Shown here piece by piece: positions 2,236-25,245 of a stretch of 48,014 bases of DNA. Source of the DNA: Granulicella sp. (GTDB lineage: Bacteria; Acidobacteriota; Terriglobia; Terriglobales; Acidobacteriaceae); assembly GCA_003132145.1 (NCBI GenBank), contig PKWU01000088.1, positions 1-48,014 on the forward strand. The letters are read 5' to 3'. The notes under the pieces are model-generated. The model was not told the DNA's origin. It saw nothing but the letters and a program-made list of their open reading frames with translations, and did not search any database. The first letter of the stretch is position 1, and every line of letters begins with the position of its first letter. The position numbers and the translations under genes were made by a program.

Positions 2236-3510
2236 TCAGGAGGCAACGTGTTTCTTCCAGGACAATATCCGCTTGAGATGAAGTAGCTTCGCATTGGTCG
2301 ACGGCACAGATTTCAAGTGCTCCATAACCGTAAGTCCAAGTGCACAGCAGATACTAACCAGCAAGCCCGCGATAGCACTCCCGAGTACGATGAGAGTGCG
2401 CCTTGGAGAGGATTTCATGTCCGGCGGGACGGCGGGGTCGACAACCTGAATCAGCGCTCCCTCCTTTGCCTCGTCGAGCTTGGCAGCCTCGTACTGCCGC
2501 GCCAGGATATCGAAGATTGTCACGTAGTATTGCACGTCACGCTGCTTGCGGATGTATTCGAGGCTTGCCTCGGGTACTCGTCCCTTGGGAACGATGAGTC
2601 CGCTGCTGCCTTCTTCAGAGCCACCCAATTTGGCCAACTGCTCGCGCATGCCTTCCAACTCCTTCTGTGCCTGCACTAATTGGGAGTTTTCCGCGGTTGC
2701 ATACGTCTGCATCCCCTGAATCTGCACATCCCTCGCTGTAATCTCCGCGCGCAGATTTGCTGCTGAGTCAATCAGGGCGCGCGCCTGGCTGTCGGGCTGG
2801 ATCACACCCGTGCTCAGTTCTGTCATCTTCAGGGCCTCTTCGGCGTTGGCCAGGTCGTCCTTCGCCTTTTCAAGCTCCTGCTCGAAGAAGAGCCTGCGCT
2901 GGGAGGCTTCCGTGATGGCAAGATGCTCAGATAGTTTTCGAAACTGGTCGACATAGCCGTTGGCAATATCCGCCGCGCGGTGTGGATCGCTATCTACGAT
3001 CGAGATGCGGATCAGGCTATCCTTGGCGCTGTCATCAACGGTTGCATGGCCCTCGAACGCCTTGCGCGCGCTGGATAGATACCGTGCGTGGTACACCTGC
3101 ATCAGGCCAAAATGCTGTACCACGGCATCCTCAACCGTGCGGCTCGTCAACATCCCGACAAAGGTGTCGTTGGGGTTCCTAAGGCCGAGACCGCCAGCCA
3201 GCGCAGCCATGCCGCCCATGGAGCCAAGCTGGGAGGCCATCGCTGTGCTCATGGAAGAGTTCTGCTGGGGTGGAAGCAAGGTCACGGTAGCGGTGTAGCT
3301 CTTGGGCAGAAGCAGCGCGTACATGATCGCGAGAACAGTAATAACCGCGGTGGTCCAGAGGATGAGGCGCTTCCGCTCGGCAAAGACGATCAGAAGATCG
3401 AGCAGGGAGATATTGACATCCTCATCATTTGACATGCTTCCGGAGTCGGTTGGCGCGGCAGCAGAATCAACGTGTTCATTCGGTTCGGAAGGTGGAGTTT
3501 CGGGCGTCAT
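2236..3510 (-). CDS. Wzz-type chain-length determinant / polysaccharide co-polymerase
   Basis: A 424-residue inner-membrane protein. After a Pro/Glu-rich N-terminus comes the Wzz domain (DVNISLLDLLIVFAERKRLI), a first transmembrane helix at about residues 48-70, the YTATVTLLPPQ segment, and a long coiled-coil periplasmic part (about 185-320). Then come an RDVQYYVTIFDILARQYEAAKLDEA region of the GNVR type and the Pro-rich PRRTLIVLGSAIAG second membrane helix. No C-terminal tyrosine-kinase domain is present. Proteins of this family set polymer length together with Wzy. Its partner flippase just downstream is broken, and it sits in the IS-bounded inverted segment, so its present role is uncertain. 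It is transcribed divergently from the nusG-like fragment. Confidence 0.88.
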   Translation of the reverse strand: MTPETPPSEPNEHVDSAAAPTDSGSMSNDEDVNISLLDLLIVFAERKRLILWTTAVITVLAIMYALLLPKSYTATVTLLPPQQNSSMSTAMASQLGSMGGMAALAGGLGLRNPNDTFVGMLTSRTVEDAVVQHFGLMQVYHARYLSSARKAFEGHATVDDSAKDSLIRISIVDSDPHRAADIANGYVDQFRKLSEHLAITEASQRRLFFEQELEKAKDDLANAEEALKMTELSTGVIQPDSQARALIDSAANLRAEITARDVQIQGMQTYATAENSQLVQAQKELEGMREQLAKLGGSEEGSSGLIVPKGRVPEASLEYIRKQRDVQYYVTIFDILARQYEAAKLDEAKEGALIQVVDPAVPPDMKSSPRRTLIVLGSAIAGLLVSICCALGLTVMEHLKSVPSTNAKLLHLKRILSWKKHVAS

Positions 3511-3667
3511 CGGTTCCTACGGATTAGGGATTGGCGGCTATCTCTGCATTCTACAATGAGTGCCCTCCAAATTCTGTTATTGAATTATGCTCAACGCCGT
3601 AGTCCCCCTTGGAGGTTCAAAATCGCCTCACTGAATACGAGGACGCCCCCGCTGTCTGAGATTGCCA

Positions 3668-3828
3668 TATACTATTGCATTAACAACACATTTTGGTTCC
3701 TTGTTGGACGTGAGCGGAGCATGAAGATGCCTCCGTCCATTGTGGATTTAGGACTTCTGTTTTGGGGAGATTCTTGCATCCGCGAGGCGGTGTGGGAAAC
3801 ATCTCACCCGAGTGAGGATAGCGCAGCT
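3668..3828 (+). promoter_or_regulatory. Second copy of the structured nusG-paralogue leader, with promoter
   Basis: This stretch aligns almost without gaps, at roughly 80% identity by eye, with the minus-strand leader at 25195-25036 in front of the intact antiterminator gene. Shared parts: a -10-like TATACT (3668-3673); hairpin 1, GGAGCAT/ATGCCTCC with loop GAAG (3716-3734); the block CTTGCATCCGCGAGG; hairpin 2, CTCAC/GTGAG with loop CCGA (3803-3816); and GAGGATAGCG before the TTG start. Differences fall mainly in loops and linkers. The role as a 5' leader controlling a NusG-like gene is inferred. Confidence 0.6.
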
Positions 3829-4045
3829 TTGTCTGAAATATGGCATCCGGGCATCGTTCAATCGAGCAGTCGCTCCTTGGACTCCTTCTCGGCTGGTACC
3901 TTGCGCGCCTGCACCCTGTGTGCCGAAATGGTTTGCAGCCTAGACGTCTCCACGCCATGAATAGCGTGTGGTTCAACACCTGGAAATGAGGGAGATAGAG
4001 CATTGTCTGCCGCTCTATCGCACCCAGCGTAAGTGGACGACGGGT
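3829..4045 (+). pseudogene. 5' fragment of a second NusG-like antiterminator gene
   Basis: From TTG 3829 the frame begins SEIWHPG, matching SEIWRRG of the gene at 24436-25035. One extra base near 3900-3915 shifts the frame, after which the same protein is recognisable as KWFAA, then HLEMR, then LPLYRTQRKW up to about 4045. The sequence stops at CTAG 4046-4049, where the IS begins. It is therefore both frameshifted and cut off by the IS. If the 599-4049 inversion is undone, its missing 3' part should lie just outside the left edge of the window, beyond the left IS copy. Confidence 0.75.
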
Positions 4046-4049
4046 CTAG

Positions 4050-5352
4050 GAACTTGTTGAAATTCGGTTGATCTGTGCGGGTTTATTTGCTATCTGTATC
4101 GTACCGTTGGCTGAATCGGTTCGGATCTCGTCTTTTGCGAGTGTTTTACGCTGCTTTTGTAGCCTCGTTGAAGGCCATTTCTGGCCTTCGACCGTGCTTC
4201 AGGCGCACTGCTCCCGAAGTCCTTCCGCATGTCTTTGCGCGATCAGCCGGGGCAGTCGTAGCAGGTTGTGCGCGGCGCAACTGAAGACGAACAGCCAGTC
4301 GACTTTCTCCAGTCCGCGCAGCTTGACCTGGCGCAGCGGGCCGGTCTGCTTCAGCCATCCGAATCCCTTTTCGACCAGCCAGCGCCAGCTCAGACTGATG
4401 GCATAGCCTGCGTGCCGCGTGGTGCGGCGATCCAGATTGCTGCATCGTCCCTTATCGTTCCTTGTAACGTGAGGCGTTACATTCAGCTCCCGTGCAGTCG
4501 TTACAAAATCTTTCGTATCGTAAGCCTTGTCCGCACCCACCGTGATGCGTCGCGAGCGGTCTTTCTGGCGCTCATGCAGCATCAGCAGAGCGGCGTCGCG
4601 TTCGGCGAATCCATCCGCAGTGGTAACCATCGCGGCGGCGATCAGGCCGTTGCGATTCTCCACCAGCGCGTGGCCAAGGTAACTCAACTTCGACTCCTTG
4701 CCATAACTCTTCTTGTACAACCGCGCGTCCGCATCGGTGGTCGATTCATGCGTCTTGTTGCTGCGCTTCTGGCCGCGGAAGTCCGTGCCATCGCCGTCGC
4801 CGGAGCCGTCCTTGGCGCGAAAGCTCTTCTGCGAAGCCCACGCCTGAATCAGCGTGCCGTCCACGGTAAAGTGCTCGTCACTCATAAACTTTCTGGCGTG
4901 CAGATTGACTTCGGCAAAAAATCTCTGCGCCACTTCGCTGTTCAATAGCCGGTCGCGGTTCTTGGAAAACACCGCGTGGTTCCACATCGAATCGTCCATG
5001 CCGAGACCGACGAACCAGCGAAACAGCAGGTTATAGTCGATCTGCTCGACCAGCAGCCGCTCCGAGCGCACCGAATAAAACACTTGCAACAACAAGGCCC
5101 GCAGAATATATTCGGGCGCAATCGAAGGCCGGCCAGAGTCCGCATACAGCGCATCGAACTCCGCGCTCAGCGAACCCAACACCGCATCCGTCAGCTTGCG
5201 AACCGCACGCAACGGATGGTCCACCGGAACCCGCTGCTCCAACGAAACATAACTGAACATCCCATCCTGTACCCGCTCATCTCCACGCATGGATGTTAGA
5301 CGAATCAGCCTGCATGACGGTTGCGGAAACGCGTGCCTTTTTCAACAAGTTC
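4050..5352 (-). mobile_element. IS5-family insertion sequence, complete copy
   Basis: A 1303-bp element with terminal inverted repeats GAACTTGTTGAA (4050-4061) and TTCAACAAGTTC (5341-5352) and one transposase gene on the minus strand. The flanks do not match: CTAG at 4046-4049 and TTAA at 5353-5356. The same TTAA follows the 3' end of the left copy, which is what recombination between the two inverted copies would give. The right end supplies the last codons and stop of gmhB. Confidence 0.93.
4199..5290 (-). CDS. IS5-family DDE transposase
   Basis: 363 residues, full length for the family. The N-terminal domain begins with the region around FSYVSLEQRVPVDHPLR and contains LLLQVFYSVRSERLL. The catalytic core shows FTVDGTLIQAW (first Asp), a charged Gly/Asp-rich insertion near residues 160-185, GADKAYDT (second Asp) and VEKGFGWLK (Glu). 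The frame is intact with no stops, so the element could be active. It is the likely source of transposase for the MITE at 1933-2094, which has the same ends. Confidence 0.95.
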   Translation of the reverse strand: MRGDERVQDGMFSYVSLEQRVPVDHPLRAVRKLTDAVLGSLSAEFDALYADSGRPSIAPEYILRALLLQVFYSVRSERLLVEQIDYNLLFRWFVGLGMDDSMWNHAVFSKNRDRLLNSEVAQRFFAEVNLHARKFMSDEHFTVDGTLIQAWASQKSFRAKDGSGDGDGTDFRGQKRSNKTHESTTDADARLYKKSYGKESKLSYLGHALVENRNGLIAAAMVTTADGFAERDAALLMLHERQKDRSRRITVGADKAYDTKDFVTTARELNVTPHVTRNDKGRCSNLDRRTTRHAGYAISLSWRWLVEKGFGWLKQTGPLRQVKLRGLEKVDWLFVFSCAAHNLLRLPRLIAQRHAEGLREQCA

Positions 5353-5953
5353 TTAAAGCACCAAGAATAATCTTGGTGGCTGCTTCTAGATCGTCAGCAT
5401 GAAAATCTGCATGAGTCTCGCCACTATCAGCACCATCGCTCTCTTCTTTGTTGAAGACACGGATAGTACGCACACCTGCTGCCTGGCCGCATTCGATGTC
5501 GGAATCGCGGTCACCGACCATCCATGAGTGCTCCATGTCCAGGTAATACTCATCGCGGGCCTGAAAGAGATAGAACGGCGAGGGCTTTCGGCAGCTACAG
5601 GTGCCAGAGTATTCGGGGACAACTCCATGCGGATGATGCAGGCAGTAGTAAAATGCAGCAAACTCAATCTGTTCTTTGCTCAGGATGTGCAGTAAACTCC
5701 TGTGGATGCTCTCTAGAGTTTGCAGGGTCGCCTTGGCCTTAGCATAATTCGGCTGATTGGAGACAACAAAGAGTAGAAACCCCTCCTTCTGCAAGGCGCG
5801 CAGTGCAATGAGCGCATTAGGCATCATCTCAAAGTCTTCAACCGTCAGAGGCGATTCCCATATACCGGTTGACGGATTCATGACGTTACGATTGATAATA
5901 CCGTCGCGATCCAGAAAGACTGCCACACGTTTATTCAGAGCACCGACTCCCAT
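5342..5953 (-). CDS. gmhB: D-glycero-D-manno-heptose 1,7-bisphosphate 7-phosphatase (HAD family)
   Basis: 203 residues. FLDRDGIINRN is HAD motif I with the nucleophile Asp; VVSNQP is motif II; CRKPSPF supplies the motif III Lys; GDRDSDI is motif IV. The zinc-binding loop typical of GmhB is present (CLHHPHG followed by CSC). It removes the 7-phosphate of heptose bisphosphate in the heptose pathway. It overlaps the end of gmhA by 19 bp, so the two are probably translationally coupled. The last codons (ArgThrCys-stop) are made by the IS end at 5342-5352; excising the IS with one TTAA and joining to 603 gives LysAsn-stop instead. The catalytic core is untouched. Confidence 0.9.
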   Translation of the reverse strand: MGVGALNKRVAVFLDRDGIINRNVMNPSTGIWESPLTVEDFEMMPNALIALRALQKEGFLLFVVSNQPNYAKAKATLQTLESIHRSLLHILSKEQIEFAAFYYCLHHPHGVVPEYSGTCSCRKPSPFYLFQARDEYYLDMEHSWMVGDRDSDIECGQAAGVRTIRVFNKEESDGADSGETHADFHADDLEAATKIILGALRTC

Positions 5954-6552
5954 TTCATTTCGTTCTCCTTGAGCCGTGGATGAGAGACAATCAGATGCCA
6001 GACTACAGCCTGAAACGACTCTGTGTGCGGTGTTACAGTATCAGCAGAAACCGTGGGAATGATGACCGCAGCATCCGCCACCTTGGCCGTGTAACCGCCA
6101 TCGCGTCCTACCACACCGATGATCTTTGCACCGACCTCATGTGCCAATTCCAGTGCCCTAACAATGTTGGTACTGATGTTTTTTTCTCGATTGCCGCCGC
6201 CAACAGAGAACACAAACAGAGTGTCGCCCCGGCGCAGATGGCTTCCACTCAGCCATCTTGCAAAGGACGAATCCCATCCGTCGTCGTTCACGCGCGCGGT
6301 CAGCTCGCTGACATTGTCAGTCGGTGTGTAACTTTCAATGTTTGCGATCTTGCGAAAGTCGTTGACAGCGTGGGTGGCATTGCCAGCCCCTCCACCCACG
6401 CCTATAATAAAAAGCCGTCCGTTAGCGATGCGCGTTTCAAGCAAGATGTCGATCATTTTCTCGATCTGCGCTTGGTCAATCTGTGTCGCGATTGTAGCTG
6501 CTTCTGACAAGTATCTCGATGTGTAGTTTCCCATACTTTCTCCAAGCTTCAT
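5935..6552 (-). CDS. gmhA: Sedoheptulose-7-phosphate isomerase (SIS domain)
   Basis: 205 residues of the GmhA type: FIIGVGGGAGNATHAVNDFRK gives the SIS phosphosugar-binding loop, followed by FSVGGGNREKN, GVVGRDGGYTAKVADAAV and the C-terminal TPHTESFQAVVWHLIVSHP helix. It converts sedoheptulose 7-phosphate to D-glycero-D-manno-heptose 7-phosphate, the first committed step of heptose synthesis. An internal ATG (MGNYTS) is a possible alternative start. It follows a leftover C-terminal gene fragment with only one base between stop and ATG. Confidence 0.92.
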   Translation of the reverse strand: MKLGESMGNYTSRYLSEAATIATQIDQAQIEKMIDILLETRIANGRLFIIGVGGGAGNATHAVNDFRKIANIESYTPTDNVSELTARVNDDGWDSSFARWLSGSHLRRGDTLFVFSVGGGNREKNISTNIVRALELAHEVGAKIIGVVGRDGGYTAKVADAAVIIPTVSADTVTPHTESFQAVVWHLIVSHPRLKENEMKWESVL

Positions 6553-6553
6553 T

Positions 6554-6703
6554 TTACTGCTTTGAGCGAGAATCTGCCAATGTGCTCAGGTGCGTGCGCA
6601 TCATGGTGGGCAATACCTGGAGCCATGCTTCCTTCGGCAGGCCAAATCGCTCCAGGGCGCATTGGCTACGATGTAGAGCACCGACTTGTGCAACAAGCGC
6701 ACC
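6554..6703 (-). pseudogene. C-terminal scar of an unidentified operon gene
   Basis: An open stretch of 49 codons ends at TAA 6554-6556, one base before the gmhA start, as expected for a former coupled gene. It contains RFGLPKEAWLQVLPTMMRT, which reads like real protein, but no start codon or upstream body is left and a stop lies at 6704-6706. I do not recognise the family. It may be what remains after deletion of a gene between hddA and gmhA. Confidence 0.35.
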
Positions 6704-6737
6704 TTACCGGGAACAGATCTTAGTCTGAAAGCCACCA

Positions 6738-6769
6738 GGTTGATTCCGCCACAGCGGCGGTTATCAACC
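6738..6769. other. Strong intergenic hairpin between hddA and gmhA
   Basis: GGTTGAT (6738-6744) pairs with ATCAACC (6763-6769), and inside it CCGCC (6746-6750) pairs with GGCGG (6756-6760) around loop ACAGC. It lies about 50 bp after the hddA stop. There is no T-run on either side, so it is more likely an mRNA-processing or stability element, or a repeat, than a terminator. Confidence 0.5.
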
Positions 6770-6820
6770 GAAATCCCTTCATATTTCTTGCAAGATCGAT
6801 ACTGCGGAAATGCTGCGACC

Positions 6821-7804
6821 TCAATTTCGCGAGATTACTATCGAACCGTCAAAATCAAAGGTGAAGTCCATCTCCTCTATTCCAGTCTCACACATTACAC
6901 GGCGTAATCTTGGCCGGTCATTCGTTTGAAAGAGCAAGAATCCGCTGCCACCAGCGCCCACTAACTTTCCACCAGTCGCGCCGCCCTTGCTGCGCGCCAG
7001 TTCGTAGAGTTGATCGATCGAGTCGCTGCTCATTCCCTTTGAGCGACATCGTTTATGCAACCAATGTTCATGCATCAACTCGCCGAATCGTGAGATTTCT
7101 CCTGCCTCCAGAACACTCCGAATCTCAAGGCCGAGTTGTTTGATAAAGTGCAGGCCCTCAAGCATCTTTCTATTATGTTGTTCCGACTTTTCCTTCTGAT
7201 CGATCAGGATACTTGACGCGCTTCTTGTCGTTCCTACATAGAACATCATAAGCGAATCGCGAAGGTCCTGAATCGAGGATTCGCTCATCTTCAAGGAATA
7301 GACAGCTACAGTGTCATCCTGGCGGTACTCCTGACAAAGTATTCCCCCATAAGCGGCAATATACTGATCCTGTTTCCCGACTGGCTCCTGGAGTCGGGTC
7401 ATTTCAATTTCGATGGCCTCCTGAGCCAGCGCTTCCGGGCCCACGGGGTTTCGATTGAAAGCATGTAACACGTGGATAAGACCTACCAGAAAAGCACCGG
7501 ACGAGCCAAGGCCAGTTCCCGCCGGTACGTCGGCTATGCTCACAATTTCAATTGGCCCCCTAATGTCGTATACGTTAAGCACTTCGCGAATCAAACGATG
7601 ACGAATCTCCGCCCGCGTCTGCACCCTCTCCATCTCGGAGTATTTCAAAATATATCCCGGTAAAAATGCCTTGTTCACGCTTACATAGGAATACTTATTA
7701 ATTGCGGCTGACAGAACAAATCCGCCAAACTCCCGGTAGTAAGACGGCAGATCCGTCCCCCCCCCTCCGATCGATATCCGCAGTGGCGTTCTCGTTATAA
7801 ACAT
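6821..7804 (-). CDS. hddA: D-glycero-alpha-D-manno-heptose-7-phosphate kinase (GHMP family)
   Basis: 327 residues from ATG 7804, which follows GAGGAG; longer upstream frames have no such site. FITRTPLRISIGGGGTDLP is the HddA N-terminus, AGTGLGSSGAFLVGL the GHMP ATP-binding loop, and GGKLVGAGGSGFLLF the third GHMP motif. It phosphorylates heptose 7-phosphate at the anomeric position in alpha configuration, the route to GDP-heptose used for S-layer, capsule and O-antigen heptose, as opposed to the ADP-heptose route to LPS core. Its neighbours hddC, gmhA and gmhB complete the same pathway. Confidence 0.92.
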   Translation of the reverse strand: MFITRTPLRISIGGGGTDLPSYYREFGGFVLSAAINKYSYVSVNKAFLPGYILKYSEMERVQTRAEIRHRLIREVLNVYDIRGPIEIVSIADVPAGTGLGSSGAFLVGLIHVLHAFNRNPVGPEALAQEAIEIEMTRLQEPVGKQDQYIAAYGGILCQEYRQDDTVAVYSLKMSESSIQDLRDSLMMFYVGTTRSASSILIDQKEKSEQHNRKMLEGLHFIKQLGLEIRSVLEAGEISRFGELMHEHWLHKRCRSKGMSSDSIDQLYELARSKGGATGGKLVGAGGSGFLLFQTNDRPRLRRVMCETGIEEMDFTFDFDGSIVISRN

Positions 7805-7829
7805 GCATCTCCTCGTTGAAGTCAGTTTA

Positions 7830-8555
7830 TCATCTGGCGGGATAGTGCTTTGAGCCGCGCAGCATTTCGTCCGTCTCACGCAATCCGTTGGGCGTACCGA
7901 TTTCATAAAAGCGCTGTTTCACTTCAAACCCGCCTAATTGGCCTGCTTCTACCAGATCGCCATACACCATACTTAGGTCGAAGACTGCGTCCTTCCCCCA
8001 TCGCTCCAATGCATCCGGCTTCAGAATCCCCAAGCCGTAATCGATGTACTGCATTTCCGGCGTAATCTTTACCTTGTCGTAGTTTCGAATGCGGCAATCT
8101 CGGAAGTCGACATTGCTCCTGTCCCATCGATTCTCATTGTGAAATACCGTCATTAGTCCGCTTGTCCCAAAACGAAGAAACGTCTCATAGACAGGGCGAA
8201 ACTCAATGGGCAGATAGCTGTCTCCATACATAACAAAGAAATGTTCGCCAAGCTTGGGCAGCGCATTTCTGATCGCTCCGCCGGTTCCCTTCAGCGAACT
8301 GCCATCATAGGAATAGCGAACGTTGCACCCAAACTCTGTGCCGTCGCGAACATAGTCCTCAATTTGCTCTCCAAGAAAGCCACAACAAATGACAACCTCG
8401 CGGATGCCCTGACCCGTTAGCAAGCGCAGTTGATGCGCGATGAACGGTTCTCCGGCGACTAGGACCATCGACTTTGGTATGGCCGCTGTGATTGGACGTA
8501 AGCGCTTCGACAACCCTCCAGCTAACAGCGCCAGAGGTGGCAAGGGACTATTCAT
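7830..8555 (-). CDS. hddC: D-glycero-alpha-D-manno-heptose 1-phosphate guanylyltransferase
   Basis: 241 residues of the nucleotidyltransferase fold: LAGGLSKRLRPITAAIPKSM is the nucleotide-binding signature with the catalytic Lys, followed by GTGGAIRNA and FFVMYGDSYL (metal-binding Asp). It should join GTP and heptose 1-phosphate to make GDP-D-glycero-alpha-D-manno-heptose. The GTP preference is inferred from its place next to hddA; by sequence alone it could be another hexose-1-phosphate transferase. It overlaps the stop of the 8548-8679 fragment. Confidence 0.85.
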   Translation of the reverse strand: MNSPLPPLALLAGGLSKRLRPITAAIPKSMVLVAGEPFIAHQLRLLTGQGIREVVICCGFLGEQIEDYVRDGTEFGCNVRYSYDGSSLKGTGGAIRNALPKLGEHFFVMYGDSYLPIEFRPVYETFLRFGTSGLMTVFHNENRWDRSNVDFRDCRIRNYDKVKITPEMQYIDYGLGILKPDALERWGKDAVFDLSMVYGDLVEAGQLGGFEVKQRFYEIGTPNGLRETDEMLRGSKHYPAR

Positions 8556-8679
8556 GATTCGTTCGCTCGTCTTCTGACAAACTGATGATGGATTGCCTCA
8601 ACGCCTCCCGGCAGTTCCGTTCGCATTTCCAACCCAGACTCTGAATGCGATTTATGGACGTCAGGCGCATCGTATCATA
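8548..8679 (-). pseudogene. C-terminal scar of an SDR epimerase/reductase gene
   Basis: About 40 codons ending in TAG 8548-8550, overlapping the hddC start. The peptide INRIQSLGWKCERNCREAL matches the shape of the extreme C-terminus of GDP-fucose-synthase/epimerase-type SDR enzymes (…ALGWKP..SLREG…). No Rossmann fold or catalytic part is left upstream. The rest of 8680-8753 shows nothing recognisable. A further nucleotide-sugar enzyme gene was probably deleted here. Confidence 0.45.
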
Positions 8680-8753
8680 TCAAGGGCGGCGTAAAAGGAG
8701 ACCGCCGGGGTGGAGAGACTCAACCTGTACGCCCAATTCCTCATATCCCTACA

Positions 8754-9683
8754 TCAGCCCGGAATCGAGCGCCAATAGTCTAGAATCTGCCGAAGCGTGT
8801 CGTCCAAGGCGTATTGGACCTTCCACCCAAGGGCTTCCAGTTTCCTAGGATCGCCGATCTTCGATCTAGGATCGAGCGGCCGAAGTAGGGCCGGGTCCTG
8901 ACGGATCTCGACCGGAACACGGGCCATGCAGCAGTAGCTCTTCAGAATGTCCCCGATGCTGATCCCATATCCGGTGCAAATGTTATAAACTTCGCCCTGC
9001 TTGCCGGCGTCTGCGATGCGAAGGATGGCGTCAACGCCATCGCGAATGTCCATTATGTCCCGTATTGGACGCAGATCTCCCACTTGCATAAGCGTTTGCT
9101 GACCACGCTCTATGGCAACAATCCGGCGCGCGAAATCCGAGCAGACATCGCCTGTCTTCCGCGGGCCAACCAGGAAGAACGGTCGGGTCCTTATCGCGTC
9201 GAGTCCATAGCGGCGCACGCACAACTGCACGAATTCCTCCGCAGCCAGCTTAGAGGCACCATAGGGGTTGTTTGGTTCGAGCGGGGAGCTTTCATTGATC
9301 AGCCGGTTGTCGGATGGTTCTGCATATTCCGCACTGGATCCTGTAGAGATGAAGCGAGGCGCTTTGGGAAGTGCACGTGCGGATTCAATAAGGTGGATCG
9401 TGCCAAGGACGTTCACGTGATACGTCGTCGCGGGGTCCTGCCACGACGGCCCGATCAGACTCTGTGCGGCCAGATGGATGATGACATCGGGTACAAATTC
9501 AGCCAGGTCATTGGCGATTCCGCGGCGATCGGAGAGATCGATTTCAGCAGTCGTAATGCCAGCCGACCAGTCGTACGCCCCATGTCCGTGGGTCCATGCC
9601 CGAACCGTATCGCCGCGCCGCACCGCAGTCTCGACCAAGTGCCATCCAATGAAGCCTCCGGCTCCGGTGACGAGCATGCGCAT
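8754..9683 (-). CDS. SDR-family GDP-sugar 4-reductase or 4,6-dehydratase (Rmd/Gmd-like)
   Basis: 309 residues from ATG 9683, preceded by AGAGGAG. TGAGGFIGWHL is the NAD(P)-binding loop, IIHLAAQSLIG follows, the active site is STGSSAEYA with YGASK (Tyr-x-x-x-Lys), and RTRPFFLVGPRKTGDVCSDFA is the Rmd/Gmd-type substrate segment. Enzymes of this group act on GDP-4-keto-6-deoxy sugars. Beside the GDP-heptose genes, the likely substrate is a GDP-heptose derivative, as with the 6-deoxyheptose enzymes of Yersinia and Campylobacter. No clear separate 4,6-dehydratase is seen, so which of the two reactions it performs is open. Confidence 0.75.
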   Translation of the reverse strand: MRMLVTGAGGFIGWHLVETAVRRGDTVRAWTHGHGAYDWSAGITTAEIDLSDRRGIANDLAEFVPDVIIHLAAQSLIGPSWQDPATTYHVNVLGTIHLIESARALPKAPRFISTGSSAEYAEPSDNRLINESSPLEPNNPYGASKLAAEEFVQLCVRRYGLDAIRTRPFFLVGPRKTGDVCSDFARRIVAIERGQQTLMQVGDLRPIRDIMDIRDGVDAILRIADAGKQGEVYNICTGYGISIGDILKSYCCMARVPVEIRQDPALLRPLDPRSKIGDPRKLEALGWKVQYALDDTLRQILDYWRSIPG

Positions 9684-9687
9684 GGTT

Positions 9688-10707
9688 TCAGCTCCTCTTT
9701 CCAAAACCTGGAACGCTCACGACGGACTTCGTCCGCTCGGCGTGATAGGCCGCAAGTGCTAAGCGCATCGCCTCACGACCGTCCCGTCCGTCGCCAATCG
9801 GTGGCCGTCCCTCGGCGATCGCGGCCTTGAATTCACGCCATTCGGAGCGCCATGACGTATCGCTGCCGCGGTATTCGACCACGAGGTCCTGGAACGGCGC
9901 GTCGTAATCGCGTTTGCCCACGTACAGACGTTCATTGCCATAGGCCCCGCCGAGTCCCTCAATCAACAGGTATCCATCCGTGCCCAGCAACTCGAGCGAA
10001 AACAAGTTCTTCCATTGTGTAAGGCTCGAATGGAGTGTGGCAAGCCCACCCTCCGCCGAACGGAACACCGCCATGCCGTTGTCGTCGAGGGTCTGTCCGT
10101 GGAAGAAGCCGATCGTAGTCATGCAGCTCACTTCGACCAGTTCACCCATGAACCAGCGGAACAGATCGATGCCGTGAGTTCCCTGTTCCATGAATTGACC
10201 GCCTGCTGCGCGCTTAGGGTCGGAGCGCCATTCGTGCTCGTGGCTCGGTCGGCCGCAAATCCCGTAGCGGCATCGCGCCGAGATGATGCGGCCAATCTCC
10301 CCGCGCTCGAAGCGTGTATGGGCTTCGAGTATGGCTGGATGATGACGGTGATTGAACCCACATTTCAGAGTGAGCCCGGTCCGCTCGGCTGTTTTCACCA
10401 TGGCATCCGCCTCTGACATCGAGCGACAGAGTGGCTTTTCGCAGAGCACGTGCTTGCCGTTTTCCAGCGCTGCGATCGTTACCTCTGCATGGATGTGGGG
10501 AGGCGTACAAACCAGCACCGCATCGACGTCCTTGCGCTCGACTGCGTGGCGCCAGTCGGTGCTCCAGTCGCACCCATACTGCTCGGCGATCGGCGCAGAA
10601 GATTCCGATTTTTGGCCGACCACCTCGACGACTTCGTCAGAGGATTCCTTGATGGCCTGAGCGCGGCGGCGCATCTGCAGGCCGGCTCCGATGATGGCAA
10701 CTTTCAT
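9688..10707 (-). CDS. Gfo/Idh/MocA-family sugar oxidoreductase
   Basis: 339 residues. The Rossmann loop is VAIIGAGLQ at the N-terminus; VLVCTPPHIHAE and HVLCEKPL carry the EKP motif with the catalytic Lys; GGQFMEQGTHGIDLFRWF is the usual catalytic-domain His segment. These enzymes oxidise or reduce a sugar hydroxyl/keto group with NAD(P). It lies 4 bp upstream of the SDR gene and 10 bp downstream of the UGD-like gene, so all three are probably co-translated. The substrate is unknown; oxidation of a nucleotide-bound sugar at C3, or reduction of a 4-keto group, are possibilities. Confidence 0.85.
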   Translation of the reverse strand: MKVAIIGAGLQMRRRAQAIKESSDEVVEVVGQKSESSAPIAEQYGCDWSTDWRHAVERKDVDAVLVCTPPHIHAEVTIAALENGKHVLCEKPLCRSMSEADAMVKTAERTGLTLKCGFNHRHHPAILEAHTRFERGEIGRIISARCRYGICGRPSHEHEWRSDPKRAAGGQFMEQGTHGIDLFRWFMGELVEVSCMTTIGFFHGQTLDDNGMAVFRSAEGGLATLHSSLTQWKNLFSLELLGTDGYLLIEGLGGAYGNERLYVGKRDYDAPFQDLVVEYRGSDTSWRSEWREFKAAIAEGRPPIGDGRDGREAMRLALAAYHAERTKSVVSVPGFGKRS

Positions 10708-10717
10708 AGAGCTTCTC

Positions 10718-12037
10718 CTAAGTTATAGCTATCCGGCGCCCGCGGCCGATTTCGTCGTAGATCAATCCCGCTGCGGACACCTTCTTTCCATCCCAGAGGC
10801 CGGCAGTATCGAGTACATAAGTCCCGGCCATTGACCTTTTCGCCGCTTCAAAATCCAGATCCTTATAGTCACTCCATGGTGTCATGAGAACGAGGGCATC
10901 GGCACCTTCCAACGCAGCAAGAGGGTCCGCACAAACCGTGCAAGCCGAAACGGCTCTGACTTCCTCAGCATCTGCTTTGGGATCGTGGGCCGTGACGACG
11001 ACTCCGACACCAATCAGTTCCGCGATCACGTCAAGCGCCGCCGAACGCCGCAACGTACTGGTGTCAGGCTTGTAGGTAAGTCCAAGCACGGCAATGCGCG
11101 CGCCGGAAAGCGTATGTAGGGCCCGCGAAAGCTTCCGCACAACCAGCTGATTCTGCTGGATGTTGGACTGCCAAGCGCCGTCGAGCAATGGCGTGGGTAT
11201 GTCTCGACTGCGTCCGAGGCTGCGCAGGGTCTGCATGTCGCGCGCCAGTGTTCCTCCCGAAAACCCCAATCCAGGCATCAACATCGCCTTGGTCCCGATG
11301 CGCGGTTCCATCCGCAGAACTTCACCTACGCGCTTTCCGTCCGCACCAACCTCGTCGCACAAGTTACCGAGTTCGTTGGCGAAGCAGATGTTGAGCGCAA
11401 GGAATGCGTTAAGCGCGTGCTTGACCATTTCGCCCGTACGCAGGGTAACGTGCTGCCAACCGGATGCCGTGGAACCGAAAATCATCAACAGTCGATCAAA
11501 GGTATGTTGGTCGTCGCACCCGATCACCGGCAGCGCCGGTGCCCGGAACCGCTCGATCGCTTGGCCTAGACGTAGATTCTCCGGAATATAGGCGATGGAC
11601 GCGGGAGCGCTGGTCTTGCGTGCATTTATGATCTCTATCAGCCGATCACACGTGCCGACAGGTACCTGGGCTGTGACCAAGATGACGGCATCATTCGCGA
11701 TGGCTGGCGCAATCTGCTCAAAGGTCTGGAATATTCCGCCAAGATCGCTTTCGTCCATCTCGTTTACGGGCGTGTCGAACATGACGAAGACATACTGCAC
11801 ATCGCGCACGGCATCCACCACGTCTGCCGTGAAGGTCAGCCCACCACCTGCCACGCCCTTTTCCAGGAGTGCGTCCAGACCAGGTTCAAAGAGTGGTGCG
11901 CGTCCCTTCCGCAGATCCGCTATCCGCTGCACATCGGGATCCGCCCCGACGACTTCAAAGCCCATGTCCGCGAGACAGGCTGCCGCTACCACTCCTTGGT
12001 GCCAAAGACCCAAAACGGCGATTTTCATAACACCCAT
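10718..12037 (-). CDS. UDP-glucose/GDP-mannose dehydrogenase-like protein lacking the catalytic Cys
   Basis: 439 residues with the three domains of the family: N-terminal NAD domain (KIAVLGLWHQG), central domain with IPENLRLGQAI and GEMVKHALNAFLAL (Lys206 and Asn210 kept), and C-terminal domain (IAVLGLTYKPDTSTLRRSAA). At the catalytic loop, where the family has GFGFGGSCFPKD, this protein reads PGLGFSGGTLARD: the nucleophilic Cys is Thr263 and the following Pro-Lys is Ala-Arg. Without the Cys, the normal four-electron oxidation to a uronic acid should not go through the thiohemiacetal. It may be a two-electron dehydrogenase, an epimerase-like enzyme, or act differently. It overlaps the preceding SDR gene by 13 bp; ATG 12028 is an alternative start. 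Confidence 0.85.
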   Translation of the reverse strand: MGVMKIAVLGLWHQGVVAAACLADMGFEVVGADPDVQRIADLRKGRAPLFEPGLDALLEKGVAGGGLTFTADVVDAVRDVQYVFVMFDTPVNEMDESDLGGIFQTFEQIAPAIANDAVILVTAQVPVGTCDRLIEIINARKTSAPASIAYIPENLRLGQAIERFRAPALPVIGCDDQHTFDRLLMIFGSTASGWQHVTLRTGEMVKHALNAFLALNICFANELGNLCDEVGADGKRVGEVLRMEPRIGTKAMLMPGLGFSGGTLARDMQTLRSLGRSRDIPTPLLDGAWQSNIQQNQLVVRKLSRALHTLSGARIAVLGLTYKPDTSTLRRSAALDVIAELIGVGVVVTAHDPKADAEEVRAVSACTVCADPLAALEGADALVLMTPWSDYKDLDFEAAKRSMAGTYVLDTAGLWDGKKVSAAGLIYDEIGRGRRIAIT

Positions 12038-13038
12038 GCCTCGCTACCCGGCTTATTCAACATCCGGCGAACCGCGATCCGAACAGATTGATCCGAGTCG
12101 AGTCTAGAGGTCCATCCAAGCACCGCGAATTTGTCAACACGAAAATGCACGCGTGGTTGGTCGCCCGGCCACGCTTTCTTCGTCCCCTCGATTACGATTG
12201 GGGAGGAAATCAACCCCATCTCGTCGAGTACGGTGCGTGCGATATCGACGACCCGCGTGATTGTCGAGGTCCCAAGATTGAACACGTCGCACGGCTGGTC
12301 CTCCGTCATGGGGACTTGGCGGAAACCATAAAGCATTCCGTCCAGACATTCCTCGACGAGAAAGTAGTTCTTTTCCTGTCGGCCATCACCGTGAACCACG
12401 AGGCGGCTGGGATCCTTCTTCAGTCGCGCCAGAAAGTCGAATATAACGCCGTGGGTCATGCGCGCCCCAATGACGTTTCCGAAGCGATATATCCAAGCAC
12501 GCAAGCCATAGACGTGGCAGAACGACGAAATCAGCGCTTCACTCGCCGCCTTCCCAGCGCCATAGGTAGATACGGGCAGTATCGGGCCAATGGCCTCGGT
12601 CACCGGTTCTTCCGCCGCCAAGTTACCGTAAACGGCGCCGCTCGACGCGAAGATCATGTCTCGAACACCCGACCGCCGCATGGCATCCAGAATGTTGAAG
12701 GTTCCGACGATGCCATCCTCTAGGTCGCGCGCCGGGTAATCGTGACTGTTGATGATGTCGGTATTGGCCGCAAGATGCCAAACAAGCTCGTGGTTCTTGA
12801 TCTCCTCAACCAACAGTTCACGATCTAGAATGTCCCCCTTCAAGAAACGGATGTTCTGCTTAGACAAATGTCGATTGATGTATTCGAGGCGGCCGTTCGA
12901 CAAGTTATCGTAGACGGTGATCCCAACACCGGTGTCCGCAAGAAGATCGAGCACATGACTGCCGATGAATCCTGCACCCCCGGTCAGGAATATCCGTTTG
13001 ACGTGAGGGGGAATCAAATTTGTTTGCGTCAACGTCAC
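12025..13038 (-). CDS. NAD-dependent epimerase/dehydratase (GalE-like SDR), second of a pair
   Basis: 337 residues. FLTGGAGFIGSH is the NAD-binding loop, VWHLAANTDI follows, and the active site is ASSGAVYG with YGAGK. It aligns along its length with its neighbour at 13035-14000 (both have the MTHGV segment and an extended-SDR C-terminus), so the two look like diverged tandem duplicates. It starts at a GTG that overlaps the stop of the upstream gene. A role as UDP- or GDP-sugar epimerase or dehydratase follows from the family; the substrate is unknown. Confidence 0.85.
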   Translation of the reverse strand: MTLTQTNLIPPHVKRIFLTGGAGFIGSHVLDLLADTGVGITVYDNLSNGRLEYINRHLSKQNIRFLKGDILDRELLVEEIKNHELVWHLAANTDIINSHDYPARDLEDGIVGTFNILDAMRRSGVRDMIFASSGAVYGNLAAEEPVTEAIGPILPVSTYGAGKAASEALISSFCHVYGLRAWIYRFGNVIGARMTHGVIFDFLARLKKDPSRLVVHGDGRQEKNYFLVEECLDGMLYGFRQVPMTEDQPCDVFNLGTSTITRVVDIARTVLDEMGLISSPIVIEGTKKAWPGDQPRVHFRVDKFAVLGWTSRLDSDQSVRIAVRRMLNKPGSEAWVL

Positions 13039-14000
13039 CGTTCACCAGCCTCGAACTCGGAAATAACCGAACGTACAGCAGCGGTAACCGCTTCACGGGA
13101 ATTCATCTCGGCCTTCCAGCCAACGCTGCGAACCTTCGTCGTATCCAGTCTGTAAATAGGAACGTCAGCCCTCCAGCCGCGCGCGCCGCCGCTGTATTCG
13201 TAGCGGACGTCTTTCAGGCCCATCTCGCGTACCACGATGTCCGCGATGTCGCGCACCAGAAGATGATCATCCGGGGCGATATTGTAATAGCGATATCCCT
13301 CGGTTTGCCGCGATTGCAGCATTAGGATTGCGGCGATAACGTCGCTGACATGGATATATGGTTTGCTCTGGTTCCCATCACCCATAATACGCAAGCGCGA
13401 TGGATCAGCACGTAGAGCCAGCGTGAAATCGTGGCTGACGCCGTGAGTCATATGCGGGCCGACAACATTGGCGAATCGGAAAACCGTGCCGACGAAATCG
13501 AACATGTGGCAGTAGGCGCTGATAAGCGCTTCGGAAGCAAGCTTCGACGCACCGTAGGTCGAGATTGGCACCATGCGGGGATATTCCTCCGACACGGCTA
13601 CGGGCGGAACATCGCCGTATACGCCACTGCCAGATGTGAACAATATGCGCTTCACGCCAGTCTCTCGCATTGCCTCCAAGAGAATTTGCGTCAACCGCGT
13701 GCCATTGTCGAAATCGACAAGCGGCTCGTTCGCGGCGCGCGCGATGTCGGAATTTGCTGCCAAGTGAAACACAACGTCATGCCCAGCAACAGCTGGCGCG
13801 AGGGTGTCGTAGTTTGCCACGTCGCCTTCGACGATCTTCAAGCGCGAGTCGGAAAGTCGAGGGCCGAAATGCTCACGCCGGCCCGTCAGGAAATTATCGT
13901 AGACCGTAACCGTTCCTAGATCACGATCGAGAATAGAGTTCACGAGGTTCGACCCGAGAAAGCCCGCCCCTCCGGTAACAAAAATCCGCATATTCATCAA
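13035..14000 (-). CDS. NAD-dependent epimerase/dehydratase (GalE-like SDR), first of a pair
   Basis: 321 residues. FVTGGAGFLGSNL is the NAD loop, VVFHLAANSDI follows, the active site is TSGSGVYG with YGASK, and RFANVVGPHMTHGV is the substrate region. An in-frame ATG at 13991 (MRIFVTG) is an alternative start. It opens a run of five oxidoreductase genes with tiny gaps or overlaps. Two similar SDRs side by side may act at different carbons of the same nucleotide sugar, as the MlghB/C-type enzymes do in heptose modification; that is inference only. Confidence 0.85.
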   Translation of the reverse strand: MMNMRIFVTGGAGFLGSNLVNSILDRDLGTVTVYDNFLTGRREHFGPRLSDSRLKIVEGDVANYDTLAPAVAGHDVVFHLAANSDIARAANEPLVDFDNGTRLTQILLEAMRETGVKRILFTSGSGVYGDVPPVAVSEEYPRMVPISTYGASKLASEALISAYCHMFDFVGTVFRFANVVGPHMTHGVSHDFTLALRADPSRLRIMGDGNQSKPYIHVSDVIAAILMLQSRQTEGYRYYNIAPDDHLLVRDIADIVVREMGLKDVRYEYSGGARGWRADVPIYRLDTTKVRSVGWKAEMNSREAVTAAVRSVISEFEAGER

Positions 14001-14255
14001 ACTCCAATTTCAGTACTGGTGTGTAGCTCATATCATAACAGGCACTGCTCAGGGACTCTGGCGAAGTGCCCAACTGGCTGGAAGTTAGCGTCTGTCAACA
14101 CCAGGTAGAAATGTTCTGTCTTGAGGCCTCAATCCTCCAGCTAGGCGTGCTCCCTGGTGTTCCACTGAGCCAGCTCGCCAACTCGCGACGGGCGCTGCCG
14201 CCATTCGTAGATCTTCCCCCAGAAGCTCGGATGGGCGGCGTAATGGGCCCAAAAA
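14001..14255. other. 255-bp gap with no convincing gene
   Basis: A gap between the methyltransferase stop and the first SDR gene. The minus strand has a short open frame with SFWAHYAAHPSFWGKIYEW that has no family I recognise, and there is a perfect 12-base palindrome TTGAGGCCTCAA at 14121-14132. It may be a remnant of a deleted gene or element. Confidence 0.3.
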
Positions 14256-15104
14256 CTACCATTCAATCCACGCGTCCCCACCCTCACGGCAAGTCGCCGG
14301 CAAGAATTTTTCGAGTAATGCGATATCGCCGTTGTCATATGTCAAGGCTGGTAATTTAACTTTCTTGGGTTTGAAAAATATTGAAAACTCTTTTGTGCCC
14401 CTAACCAGCTTTGAGTCGGAGACGTCAATGCCGCACAGCGCTATGTTATAAGCCAGTAGTCCCGGAGACCATAAAGTAAGATGGCCCCCGAGCAGTGGCC
14501 TATGCGGGTCGGGGACAGTAATGCAGATATGTCCATCTTCGGTACAGCACTCGATGAGTTTCTGTATGAAGTTGCCGACATTTTGCTGATGCTCAAGTAT
14601 GTGAGACGCCCAGACCAGGTCGAACTTAGCCGGCGGATTAAATTGGTTAAAATCGACATGCACGACATTAAGGTTGTGTACGTCAGACTGTTTGGCGTAG
14701 ACAGAGCTGCCATAATCCACACATAAGACATTAGATCCTGCGTTCGCGAATGCCAATGCGTGATAGCCCCCGCCGGAGCCAACATCGAGGACGCTTATAG
14801 GTTTCAATTTAATGGCATAATCAAGTGCGTAAAGCGAGCGAAATCTGGGATATCCTGGGCACGTATCCTTGAAAATGTTGTAACCAAAAAGAGCGATGCC
14901 GGGCGTTAGTTGACGGCGGGCATTCAATTTTAGAAAGGTCAGCAGATGTCTGATGATGACTCTTGGAACGGTCGAATGAGGAAGAGGTTTGTGGAATTCC
15001 TCGACCGGCGATCCGGGAGGGGGAAACAACGCAATGCTTTCTGAATGCTGTGCAATGCCATCTGACTTAATAAGTCTTTTCATCCACATGGGGAATTTCG
15101 CCAT
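14256..15104 (-). CDS. Class I SAM-dependent methyltransferase
   Basis: 282 residues. SVLDVGSGGGYHALAFA is the SAM-binding motif I, VLCVDYGSSV the following acidic loop, and FDLVWASHILEHQQNVGNF the methyltransferase-11-type motif. The N-terminal 80 residues or so are unlike the fold and may contact the acceptor. Placed between glycosyltransferases and nucleotide-sugar enzymes, it probably methylates a sugar of the polymer or caps the chain. The target is unknown. Confidence 0.8.
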   Translation of the reverse strand: MAKFPMWMKRLIKSDGIAQHSESIALFPPPGSPVEEFHKPLPHSTVPRVIIRHLLTFLKLNARRQLTPGIALFGYNIFKDTCPGYPRFRSLYALDYAIKLKPISVLDVGSGGGYHALAFANAGSNVLCVDYGSSVYAKQSDVHNLNVVHVDFNQFNPPAKFDLVWASHILEHQQNVGNFIQKLIECCTEDGHICITVPDPHRPLLGGHLTLWSPGLLAYNIALCGIDVSDSKLVRGTKEFSIFFKPKKVKLPALTYDNGDIALLEKFLPATCREGGDAWIEW

Positions 15105-15181
15105 TCGTCTCCTCCTGTCTAGCCCTTTCTAGCCTCACCCGCCTAAGCGACCAAAAGCAGTTTATTCAACCCTTCTATACA

Positions 15182-16015
15182 TCAATGAGTCCTTCCATAA
15201 CGCCACTTGCGCAAGGCCATTCGCGCTCTGCGTACCCAGGGATGTATGACAAACATTCCAAACAAATACTTTGGCGAATGAGTTAAGAGGAATTCCGTAA
15301 AGAGAAATCCAGATATTTCCACATAGCTTGCCTTAATGCGGCCTAACCCGGTTCCCTGCATTTCATGTCGACGATGTTCGAATAGCAGCTTGTCCAGGTT
15401 GTAAAATCCAATCTTCGGATTTCTAGCCATTCTGATATACATCTCATGGTCTTCTGATGTGTGACCATACTTATATCCTTGCACGGAAAGCAAAACGCTC
15501 TTGCGAAACATCAAGGCCGGATGCATCAACGGGTTTCGAAAAGGAAGAACTCTCCGGATATCTCTATTCGACTGAAAATACGGATAGCTTCTCTCCAACG
15601 ATTCCGAAACCGAATCTATTAGCCGCACTCTACAGCCAAGCACATCGACATCCTTGTTCTCGTCCAAATAGCGAACCTGCTCTTCAAATCTCTCAGGAAG
15701 ACTAATATCGTCACTATCCATCCGGGCAATATATTCGCCATGGGATTCTGCAATTCCCATATTCAGAGCAAAAGCGAATCCGCCAACCGATGGCGACTCC
15801 AGTATTCTGACCCTAATATCTCCGACACACAGTTCTAGAATCTTCTCTTTTAGGTCACGACATCCCGCATCCACCATAATGAGGAATTCGAAATTCTGAA
15901 AGGTTTGAATCAAAATGCTGTTTATGGCGGGACCGAGATACGAATCCACCCTATTCACACCCATAATCACTGTGACGCGCGGAATGTTATTGTCGGGAAA
16001 CGCTCTTGTAGTCAA
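15182..16015 (-). CDS. Family 2 glycosyltransferase
   Basis: 277 residues. PRVTVIMGVNRVDSYLGPAI is the GT-A start, followed by QTFQNFEFLIMVD, ESHGEYIARMDSDD with the metal-binding DSDD, and PERFEEQVRYLDEN. The middle has HTSEDHEMYIRMA, the usual ED motif for the catalytic base. A C-terminal hydrophobic/basic stretch suggests membrane association. It should add one sugar of the repeat unit on the cytoplasmic face. Confidence 0.85.
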   Translation of the reverse strand: MTTRAFPDNNIPRVTVIMGVNRVDSYLGPAINSILIQTFQNFEFLIMVDAGCRDLKEKILELCVGDIRVRILESPSVGGFAFALNMGIAESHGEYIARMDSDDISLPERFEEQVRYLDENKDVDVLGCRVRLIDSVSESLERSYPYFQSNRDIRRVLPFRNPLMHPALMFRKSVLLSVQGYKYGHTSEDHEMYIRMARNPKIGFYNLDKLLFEHRRHEMQGTGLGRIKASYVEISGFLFTEFLLTHSPKYLFGMFVIHPWVRRARMALRKWRYGRTH

Positions 16016-16108
16016 TATACGCTCCTTTTATGCGCAAATCGAACACCGGCTATAACCGCTTCAGTGAGTATTGTTTCTGGAGTCGCTATCGGGCGAAGAC
16101 GTTCCACT

Positions 16109-17815: not shown

Positions 17816-17853
17816 TAGCTGCTCACTCTTAACAACTGGAACTATATAATCTG

Positions 17854-17975
17854 TGATCTTGTTGAAAAGTTGTTTCGGAACTTACTCCAGATCGAAAACG
17901 AGTGATCTGTAGAGCCCACTGCTGATCTAAGTATGTGTTGAGAAGCGGAACTTCCCAGCTTAATGCCATGAACTA
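17854..17975. mobile_element. Degenerate relative of the 1933-2094 MITE
   Basis: GATCTTGTTGAAAAG at 17854 and the following ACTTACTCCAGATCGAAAA and GAGTGATCTG match the left half of the MITE at 1933 (GAACTTGTTGAAT, ACTTACCCCAGAGCAAAAA, GAGTGACCGG) with one small gap; weaker similarity goes on to about 17965. I cannot find a matching right end. It fills part of the 313-bp space between two operon genes; no coding sequence is seen there. Confidence 0.5.
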
Positions 17976-18064
17976 CATAGCAGTTGTTGAGAAGAATCTC
18001 CGCACAGCTGGCTCCGTCTTGTTCGGTAATGCCGGGCAACAAAGAACCCTGGCCAGGGTAATCC

Positions 18065-18104
18065 TAACGACCATGTCGCGTTGATGTGTCGCGGCTGGTC
18101 GTTA
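18065..18104. other. Long hairpin downstream of the Wzy-like gene
   Basis: TAACGACCA (18065-18073) pairs exactly with TGGTCGTTA (18096-18104), with an inner CGCG/CGCG pairing. It begins 25 bp after the Wzy-like stop on the minus strand. No T-run follows, so it is not a classical terminator. It may protect the upstream mRNA or be part of a mobile-element relic. Confidence 0.5.
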
Positions 18105-18128
18105 TATATCAACCGTCCGCGAAGTGGA

Positions 18129-19466: not shown

Positions 19467-19480
19467 GCGAATGAACCGCC

Positions 19481-20500: not shown

Positions 20501-20562
20501 TGATGAACTATCCTCAACGTCAAAACGTATCCTGCGATAGCTCTACTATACGCAAGCACGTT

Positions 20563-25035: not shown

Positions 25036-25195
25036 AGCTTCGCTATCCTCACTTGGGTGAGTTGGTTACTACACCCCCTCGCGGATGCAAGGAAACCGCA
25101 AAAAATGAAGTCGTGAGCCACAATGTAGGGAGGCATCCTCATGCTCCGCTCACATCCGACAAGGATACAGATTAGGTGCTGTGAACACTATAGCA
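25036..25195 (-). promoter_or_regulatory. Promoter and structured leader of the polysaccharide operon
   Basis: On the minus strand an extended -10, TGCTATAGT (25195-25187), would start RNA near 25180, giving a leader of about 145 nt. It can form hairpin 1 (GGAGCAT/ATGCCTCC, loop GAGG; 25147-25129) and hairpin 2 (CTCAC/GTGAG, loop CCAA; 25061-25048). The 3' arm of hairpin 2 overlaps the GAGGA ribosome-binding site. A second copy with the same hairpins is at 3668-3828. The segment GGATAGCG faintly recalls the ops element (GGCGGTAGCGTG) of RfaH; that likeness is speculative. Confidence 0.55.
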
Positions 25196-25245
25196 TATGG
25201 CGGTCACAGGCCAGCGTTGACATCCTCGTATTAATGGAAGTGTTC

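Follow-up and report, generated by a model that had tools for sequence, protein, structure and literature searches.

The stretch of Granulicella sp. DNA analysed here (the window: 48,014 nt, contig PKWU01000088.1, assembly GCA_003132145.1) contains one intact and one broken gene for a NusG paralogue, each preceded by a similar leader of about 160 nt, which raises the question of whether this leader carries a signal and, if so, of what kind and for which protein. An initial annotation, made from the letters of the window, had read it as a structured RNA element with two hairpins, perhaps an antiterminator-responsive leader.

The two leader copies and their genes

The genes and the 5' leader features concerned are the following.

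24436-25035, minus strand: NusG paralogue B, UpxY family (NF033644), first gene of a polysaccharide operon
5342-24068, minus strand: polysaccharide gene cluster behind nusG B, from open reading frames and Pfam matches in the part of the frames that was searched
3829-4050, plus strand: 5' half of nusG paralogue A, with a frameshift and in-frame stops, ending in CTAGG at the end of an insertion sequence (IS)
4199-5290, minus strand: transposase (DUF772 / DDE_Tnp_1) of the IS breaking nusG A
25188-25200, minus strand: promoter-like CCATATGCTATAG, conserved, at about the upstream limit of the aligned likeness between copy B and the third copy L007
25147-25129, minus strand: 5' hairpin of copy B, GGAGCAT-GAGG-ATGCCTCC, from the sequence
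25113-25153, minus strand: 5' hairpin region of copy B with a weaker outer stem GTGAGC/GCTCAC (25153-25148 with 25118-25113)
3716-3734, plus strand: 5' hairpin of copy A, GGAGCAT-GAAG-ATGCCTCC, from the sequence

Copy A (3674-3828, plus strand) and the leader of copy B (25190-25036, minus strand) are identical at 121 of 153 positions (79%) with 2 gap columns, which bears out the nearly gap-free match described at first. A third copy lies on contig L007 of a Granulicella bog MAG (125/153 identical to B, 117/151 to A), and in the own assembly (G000, 89 contigs, 3.17 Mb) the leader query matches at these two copies only (the E values being 7e-98 and 2e-34). The likeness of B and L007 begins near the promoter-like CCATATgCTATAg (25200-25188) and extends into the gene, and the identities in coding DNA are 59/76 and 119/144 for B and A and 54/76 to 154/176 for B and L007. 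Leader and coding sequence are conserved to about equal degree in the three copies, and the match alone therefore speaks for common descent of gene and leader; the level of leader conservation, offered initially as evidence for an RNA element, is uninformative by itself, and the evidence for an element has to come from the leaders of other paralogues rather than from the two window copies alone.

Among these three copies, 27 of 29 columns are invariant in the block 25061-25033, 32 of 42 in the 5' hairpin region and 13 of 25 in the linker, so that the last 29 leader bases are more invariant than the other leader parts measured and the placing of changes mainly in loops and linkers was roughly right. 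Both hairpins are present in A and B, as first described. The inner stem of the 5' hairpin (25147-25129) has identical pairing in all three copies, with no covariation there, and its outer stem, judged by eye from the alignment, contains a single wobble in L007 and is interrupted in A. This hairpin is common to A, B and L007 and was seen in none of the other leaders inspected, an inspection that was not systematic. A second GCGGAGC within it was set aside as a pause site because its base at -1 is G. Two further candidates were rejected, namely the whole leader as one fold (158 nt folded; z of -1.05, -1.83 and +0.90, the three minimum-energy folds disagreeing) and a leader peptide from ATG 25136 (86, 77 and 28 residues in B, A and L007, respectively, differing in sequence).

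Between 24800 and 25420, a consensus scanner found no sigma-70-type promoter, and the search for intrinsic terminators or attenuators (G+C-rich stem and T run) gave none, so that no intrinsic terminator is seen there that an antiterminator would have to overcome. Rfam families had no match in the window above the gathering cut-off except one tRNA, and none at 3400-4100 with E up to 5. A whole-leader DNA search of 61 genomes (60 of them relatives) returned, besides the own copies, four weak matches of 21-29 bases; one of these, L003, has no GCGRAGC.

Protein B scores 111.2 bits against the UpxY model (NF033644, cut-off 100), and it falls below the cut-offs for RfaH (TIGR01955, 65.2 vs 144.5 bits; NF006534, 51.7 vs 124 bits), LoaP (34.1, cut-off 125) and NusG. 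Its gene heads a same-strand polysaccharide cluster (24068-5342), whose status as an operon is read from gene order and which includes genes for FdtA, DegT aminotransferase, flippase, glycosyltransferases, UDP/GDP-sugar dehydrogenase, epimerases, GHMP kinase, SIS and HAD proteins. A Poly_export/SLBB polysaccharide-export gene (25318-27912, plus strand) is divergent from the nusG B leader. The TTG start (25035), described initially as kept in both copies, is doubtful, because the 33 codons after it show no coding signature (8, 11 and 10 differences between B and L007 at codon positions 1, 2 and 3) and because in relatives GCGRAGC, followed by a comparable T-N-Y-R, lies about 90 nt upstream of the conserved domain; to judge from these comparisons, the true start of paralogue B probably lies downstream. 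The 3' half of a nusG copy such as A is found at G000:C83 near 30121-29762 (minus strand), close to a contig end, with the same IS end and CTAGG, so that one insertion probably split nusG A, followed by a rearrangement (between IS copies) or by an assembly break.

A short element in paralogue leaders of the family

The block that is most invariant in the three copies forms the core of the proposed element, with this anatomy in the window.

25033-25061, minus strand: copy B core with stem CTCAC (25061-25057), loop CCAA, stem GTGAG (25052-25048) and linker GATA
25043-25033, minus strand: 3' part of the copy B core, with mini-hairpin GCGAAGC (25043-25037), then TTTG (25036-25033)
3803-3831, plus strand: copy A core with CTCAC, CCGA, GTGAG, GATA, GCGCAGC and TTTG, in front of the broken nusG

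In copy B, a third pair of the mini-hairpin is given by the flanking A25044 and T25036; the mini-hairpin loop of copy A is GCA, departing from GRA. The leaders of other NusG paralogues of the genus have, in part of them, a similar layout of a stem, 3-5 bases and GCGAAGC or GCGGAGC, and the clear genus paralogues in that reading share about 29-44% protein identity.

A profile built from 16 paralogues (A7) has matches at E <= 1e-25 in 175 of the 300 family genomes, and 57 of the 79 genera in the family are represented among them. Upstream DNA was available for 126 distinct genes, comprising the genus loci and the best-scoring part of the family list (30 loci and 60 stretches); the rows G425:C111, G536:C924, G424:C118 and G474:C222, as well as all lower-scoring ones, were left out. 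The 118 genes counted score 90 bits or more with the profile and have 560 or more upstream bases, six housekeeping-type NusG genes, copy A and L065 (almost no upstream DNA) being excluded. In 97 of the 118 leaders, GCGNAGC is found between -125 and -35, counted from the first profile column, and in every case as GCGRAGC, compared with 4/118 and 5/118 in equal windows at -325 and -525, and 2/118 for the reverse complement. The genus set, in which 17 of 32 leaders of UpxY-family paralogues have GCGRAGC, served to define the motif; in the 86 leaders from other genera of the family, fetched afterwards, it is present in 80 (control windows 1 and 4, reverse 2). It is absent at -125 to -35 from the six housekeeping-type nusG genes. 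Homologues of the signal thus exist upstream of acidobacterial NusG paralogues, where the initial annotation had proposed to look for them.

Of the 21 paralogues without the motif at -125 to -35, two (L040 and L127) have a copy further upstream. L040 (G062:C6, minus strand) has the element four times in tandem, at spacings of 191, 191 and 219 bp, within about 0.7 kb before one paralogue gene. Bases upstream of about -30 and beyond about +14 from the motif carry almost no information, which means that the element is kept while its surroundings drift.

The distance from the element to the conserved domain, with a median of 92 nt in relatives, bears on translational control, in which the stem-loop would mask the Shine-Dalgarno-like GTGAGGA before TTG 25035. 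The elements of the window do abut TTG and contain GTGAGGA; the distance in relatives, the lack of GAGGA in elements of types a and d and the missing coding signature after TTG between B and L007 make this reading very improbable, and it is rejected.

Similarly, the model R3 bears on descent. Its 13 element sequences come from 11 genes of other genomes, the window copies and L007 being excluded; they were chosen as window-like, and the tree made later put them in the clade of the window protein. Within the window, the best R3 match is copy B (E 3e-10), followed by copy A (E 1.3e-6) and then by a match with E 2.7, and in the own genome the order is the same (2e-8 and 8.9e-5, next 0.095). That a gene was duplicated with its upstream DNA, and that the leaders match by common ancestry only, fits the nearly equal identities of leader and coding sequence in A, B and L007; yet the core is kept in leaders of other genera with uninformative flanks, and the R3 ranking contradicts such an account, which is almost certainly wrong as a full explanation. 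Of the six weaker matches of R3 in the own genome (E >= 0.095), five were inspected, and none of these has a clear setting. One weak match (L217; G000:C30:11111-11158, minus strand; E 0.31) has GGATAGCGTAGCTTTG and is possibly a decayed element.

The model R1 was built from eight type d elements (A5) and run on 62 genus and 349 class genomes, two overlapping sets. Its 11 strong sites (E < 1e-8), which are the 8 training sequences and 3 new ones (L056, L059 and L060), all lie before a same-strand NusG paralogue, and the weak matches L057, L058, L061 and L062 have no paralogue downstream. R1 has no match in the own genome, and within the window it ranks copy B second (E 0.15); R2 finds copy B in the own genome at E 0.037 and misses copy A. 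The R1 and R3 searches of whole genomes can miss sites, since the best candidates of a first pass were scored, at most 96 and 17 (R1) and 150 (R3) per genome.

The element subtype follows the protein phylogeny. In a tree of 124 proteins, the subtypes need 22 changes, compared with a mean of 74 after shuffling, with subtype labels that were set by regular expression (L138 being mislabelled d). Type a occupies one side of a branch (26 rows), and the window protein falls in a 13-row clade (support 100/99) that has its own element form, with the linker GATA, GATG, GGTA, GAAG or GCTA followed by GCGRAGCT. Twelve of the 13 rows have GCGRAGCT, and the thirteenth is L040, labelled 'none' by position, with its tandem copies further upstream. 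In a sister clade (L010-L013, L016, L017, L019 and L023; support 100/99), GCGRAGC is mostly absent from the usual place; several of L010-L013, L016 and L017 have another leader motif, approximately TATGTGYGNYACCRCACTGAYG, about 230-330 nt before the conserved domain, which is perhaps a replaced recognition element.

Pairing, covariation and pause register

Compensatory changes in the stem, another expectation raised at the outset, are present in the homologues. In the two helices of type d, four pairs are changed on both sides, and 94.9% of cells are paired, compared with 19-48% in slid controls. In type b, 97.5% of cells pair and one of eight pairs is changed on both sides, an outer stem pair (C-G in 20, G-C in 7), a number that is reached by 478 of 500 shuffles; when the type b structure is slid by +2, the covariation score is higher (0.147 vs 0.115), though just 55% of the cells then pair. 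When the stem arms of all 98 elements were swapped, a comparison that mixes types, own arms gave -7.10 and swapped arms -5.62 kcal/mol, and none of 2000 permutations reached the real pairing. Within types, the permutations reaching the real value were 57 (a), 42 (b), 2 (c) and 261 (d) of 5000, the result for d not being significant.

These results also bear on a double-stranded DNA operator of a classical regulator, for which a short conserved motif upstream of operons would be typical. Such an operator is highly improbable here, because the motif is strand-specific (97 forward vs 2 reverse of 118), the stem arms covary and, in A, B and L007, the element lies downstream of the promoter-like sequence.

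The mini-hairpin has a third pair in 97 of the 98 elements (G.T 69, A-T 12, C-G 9, G-C 7). The commonest, G.T, fits RNA (as G.U) better than DNA, so that the pairing may be at the RNA level. Extraordinary stability is described for DNA hairpins in which a GNA or GNNA loop is closed by two or more G-C pairs, GCGAAGC having a Tm of 78 °C (PMC4686876). By sequence, the window mini-hairpin fits the d(GC-GNA-GC) class, and the ops core of Escherichia coli likewise falls among these GNA/GNNA hairpins; DNA folding of the 11-mer of the window gave -0.4 kcal/mol with a program that is not known to have a bonus for this loop class.

Elemental pause signals are described as having G-10, Y-1 and G+1, and an RNA duplex 11-12 nt upstream is described as lengthening pauses (PMC12288461). 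Over the 98 elements, G-10 is present in 98 (the motif itself having been the anchor), Y-1 in 95, R+1 in 95 and G+1 in 56. In copy B, the predicted pause would have the RNA 3' end at T25034, with G25033 as the next base. The distance from the stem end to the assumed RNA 3' end is 13-15 nt (14 in B), compared with 11-12 nt for published pause hairpins, and it is 10-12 nt if the 3' end is placed at the C of GCGRAGC; the upstream stem may hinder backtracking instead of acting as a pause hairpin.

Relation to known systems and proposed function

The ops element of Escherichia coli, the partner of RfaH, is the best-described DNA address for a NusG paralogue. It is reported as a consensus pause at which the non-template strand folds into a hairpin, with C3:G8 as closing pair and G4-A7 as loop, and TG at positions 11-12 is shared by its targets (PMC5995543), and the pause is placed at U11 (PMC11001881). 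The 12-mer consensus GGCGAAGCTATG of the acidobacterial element shares GGCG at positions 1-4 and TG at 11-12 with ops (GGCGGTAGCGTG). Additionally, both have two G-C pairs closing a small loop, pause-like flanks, a position in polysaccharide operon leaders and a NusG paralogue as partner. However, the acidobacterial loop is GRA and not GGTA, with no T to flip out, and its partner belongs to the UpxY family and is encoded just behind the element; the ops core GCGGTAGC was found at -125 to -35 in none of the 118 paralogue leaders. The best reading, by analogy, is that the element would work like ops, yet is not ops.

In JUMPstart, found in enterobacterial O-antigen and capsule operons, a predicted RNA stem (CTCTGGT/GCCAGGG) likewise lies directly before ops, differing in stem sequence, loop, host (enterobacteria) and protein (RfaH). 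A JUMPstart 39-mer has matches of at least 90% identity in 1576 of 5426 E. coli genomes and of at least 99% in 785, located between galF and rfbB in the two genomes inspected. The UpxY system of Bacteroides capsule operons shares the protein family of paralogue B; there, the paralogue gene is described as lying inside its own target operon, whose 5' leader, ahead of upxY, is the place where the protein acts (PMC7819879, PMC7593976). In the open-access literature searched, neither a description of an acidobacterial element of this kind nor a defined recognition sequence for UpxY was found, nor an answer as to how UpxY-type antiterminators find their own operon.

The proposal here is that the 3' end of the leader is probably a site of the ops/JUMPstart kind, at which RNA polymerase would pause and the UpxY-family antiterminator encoded in the operon would be recruited. 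As RNA polymerase transcribes the leader, the stem-loop CTCAC-CCAA-GTGAG would form in the nascent RNA, and the enzyme would reach an elemental-pause sequence in which G-10 is the first G of GCGAAGC, with a pyrimidine at -1 and a purine at +1. During the predicted pause, the exposed non-template strand, with a putative and very stable d(GC-GRA-GC) mini-hairpin, would offer a binding site to the N-terminal domain of the paralogue, which could then stay on the polymerase through the long polysaccharide operon and act in antitermination, as RfaH stays on after ops. The leader is thus conserved, structured and linked to an antiterminator, much as first supposed; the conserved unit, however, is about 30-45 nt at its 3' end and not a 160-nt RNA with two hairpins.

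The same element could be read as RNA throughout, with the nascent stem-loop and the GRA mini-hairpin bound by the paralogue in the manner of LoaP, without DNA hairpin or pause. LoaP of Bacillus is likewise a NusG paralogue with a leader hairpin and a very long operon (dfn), and it is reported to recognise a dfn RNA hairpin with a UNCG loop, at which no pause is discernible (PMC12691694); protein B differs by its score against the LoaP model, given above. The covariation of the stem at the RNA level and the G.U third pair favour an RNA ligand, but the most invariant part lies in pause register (Y-1, R+1) and is ops-like in its sequence, its length and the class of its mini-hairpin, this mini-hairpin has just 2-3 bp, and the upstream stem and loop differ between element types, which together leave the all-RNA reading unlikely. 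The invariant GCGRAGC looks at least as much like a pause and non-template-DNA site of the ops type as like an RNA ligand.

The wider distribution was followed with the pattern TGTRRSYVASRKVGCGRAGC, which fits 56 of the 98 elements and has matches in 114 of 300 family genomes, compared with 10 genomes for the reversed pattern (hand count). Of 30 loci inspected, 20 lie 75-328 nt upstream of a paralogue, and another two are at polysaccharide genes, with well-formed elements and no NusG paralogue within 1.5 kb on either side: L170 (1501-1520, plus strand), between a sugar-transferase-like frame (by eye) and a glycosyltransferase (Pfam), and L178 (1501-1520, minus strand), at the start of a Poly_export protein gene. 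Their location suggests action in trans. Seven of the 30 have neither a paralogue nor a polysaccharide gene and were taken for chance matches. A search of genome contigs with protein B matched 52 stretches, one of them encoding a relative.

For the Acidobacteria, it is about an even chance that recruitment is subtype-coded across the family, each UpxY-type clade having its own composite signal of a nascent-RNA stem and a non-template-DNA GRA mini-hairpin in pause register, with proteins acting in cis and in trans. If true, ops/JUMPstart would have here a counterpart of independent or very ancient origin, and NusG paralogues would in general be addressed through stable DNA mini-hairpins (GNA, GNNA). 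In PMC11001881, the question is raised whether other modulators are recruited by ops-like hairpins whose loop has A, G or C; the acidobacterial element, with A or G in its loop, would be such a case in nature. The candidate signal is strand-specific, matched to protein clade and found in more than 100 acidobacterial genomes (the 114 of this one pattern), so that recruitment, pausing and specificity are directly testable on short templates.

Outside the family, where its possible presence is argued from context, a phylum-wide pattern search gave matches in 29 of 247 genomes, compared with about 23 for the reversed control (hand count). At four of 30 loci, in other acidobacterial families (L183, L184, L207 and L208), the pattern comes just after the 3' end of a NusG paralogue gene; the other matches inspected precede mixed genes (export protein, FemAB/GNAT, radical SAM, sigma-54 activator, oxidoreductase and several without a Pfam match). 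The element-like matches L202, L204 and L205 lie near genes with sigma-54 activator domains and may be due to chance. At L179, the remaining one of the 30 loci inspected within the family, a long inverted repeat, CTGACAGGGC-GAA-GCCCTGTCAG, is built around GCGAAGC at about 1501-1545, and ahead of it is a reading frame resembling ribonucleotide reductase.
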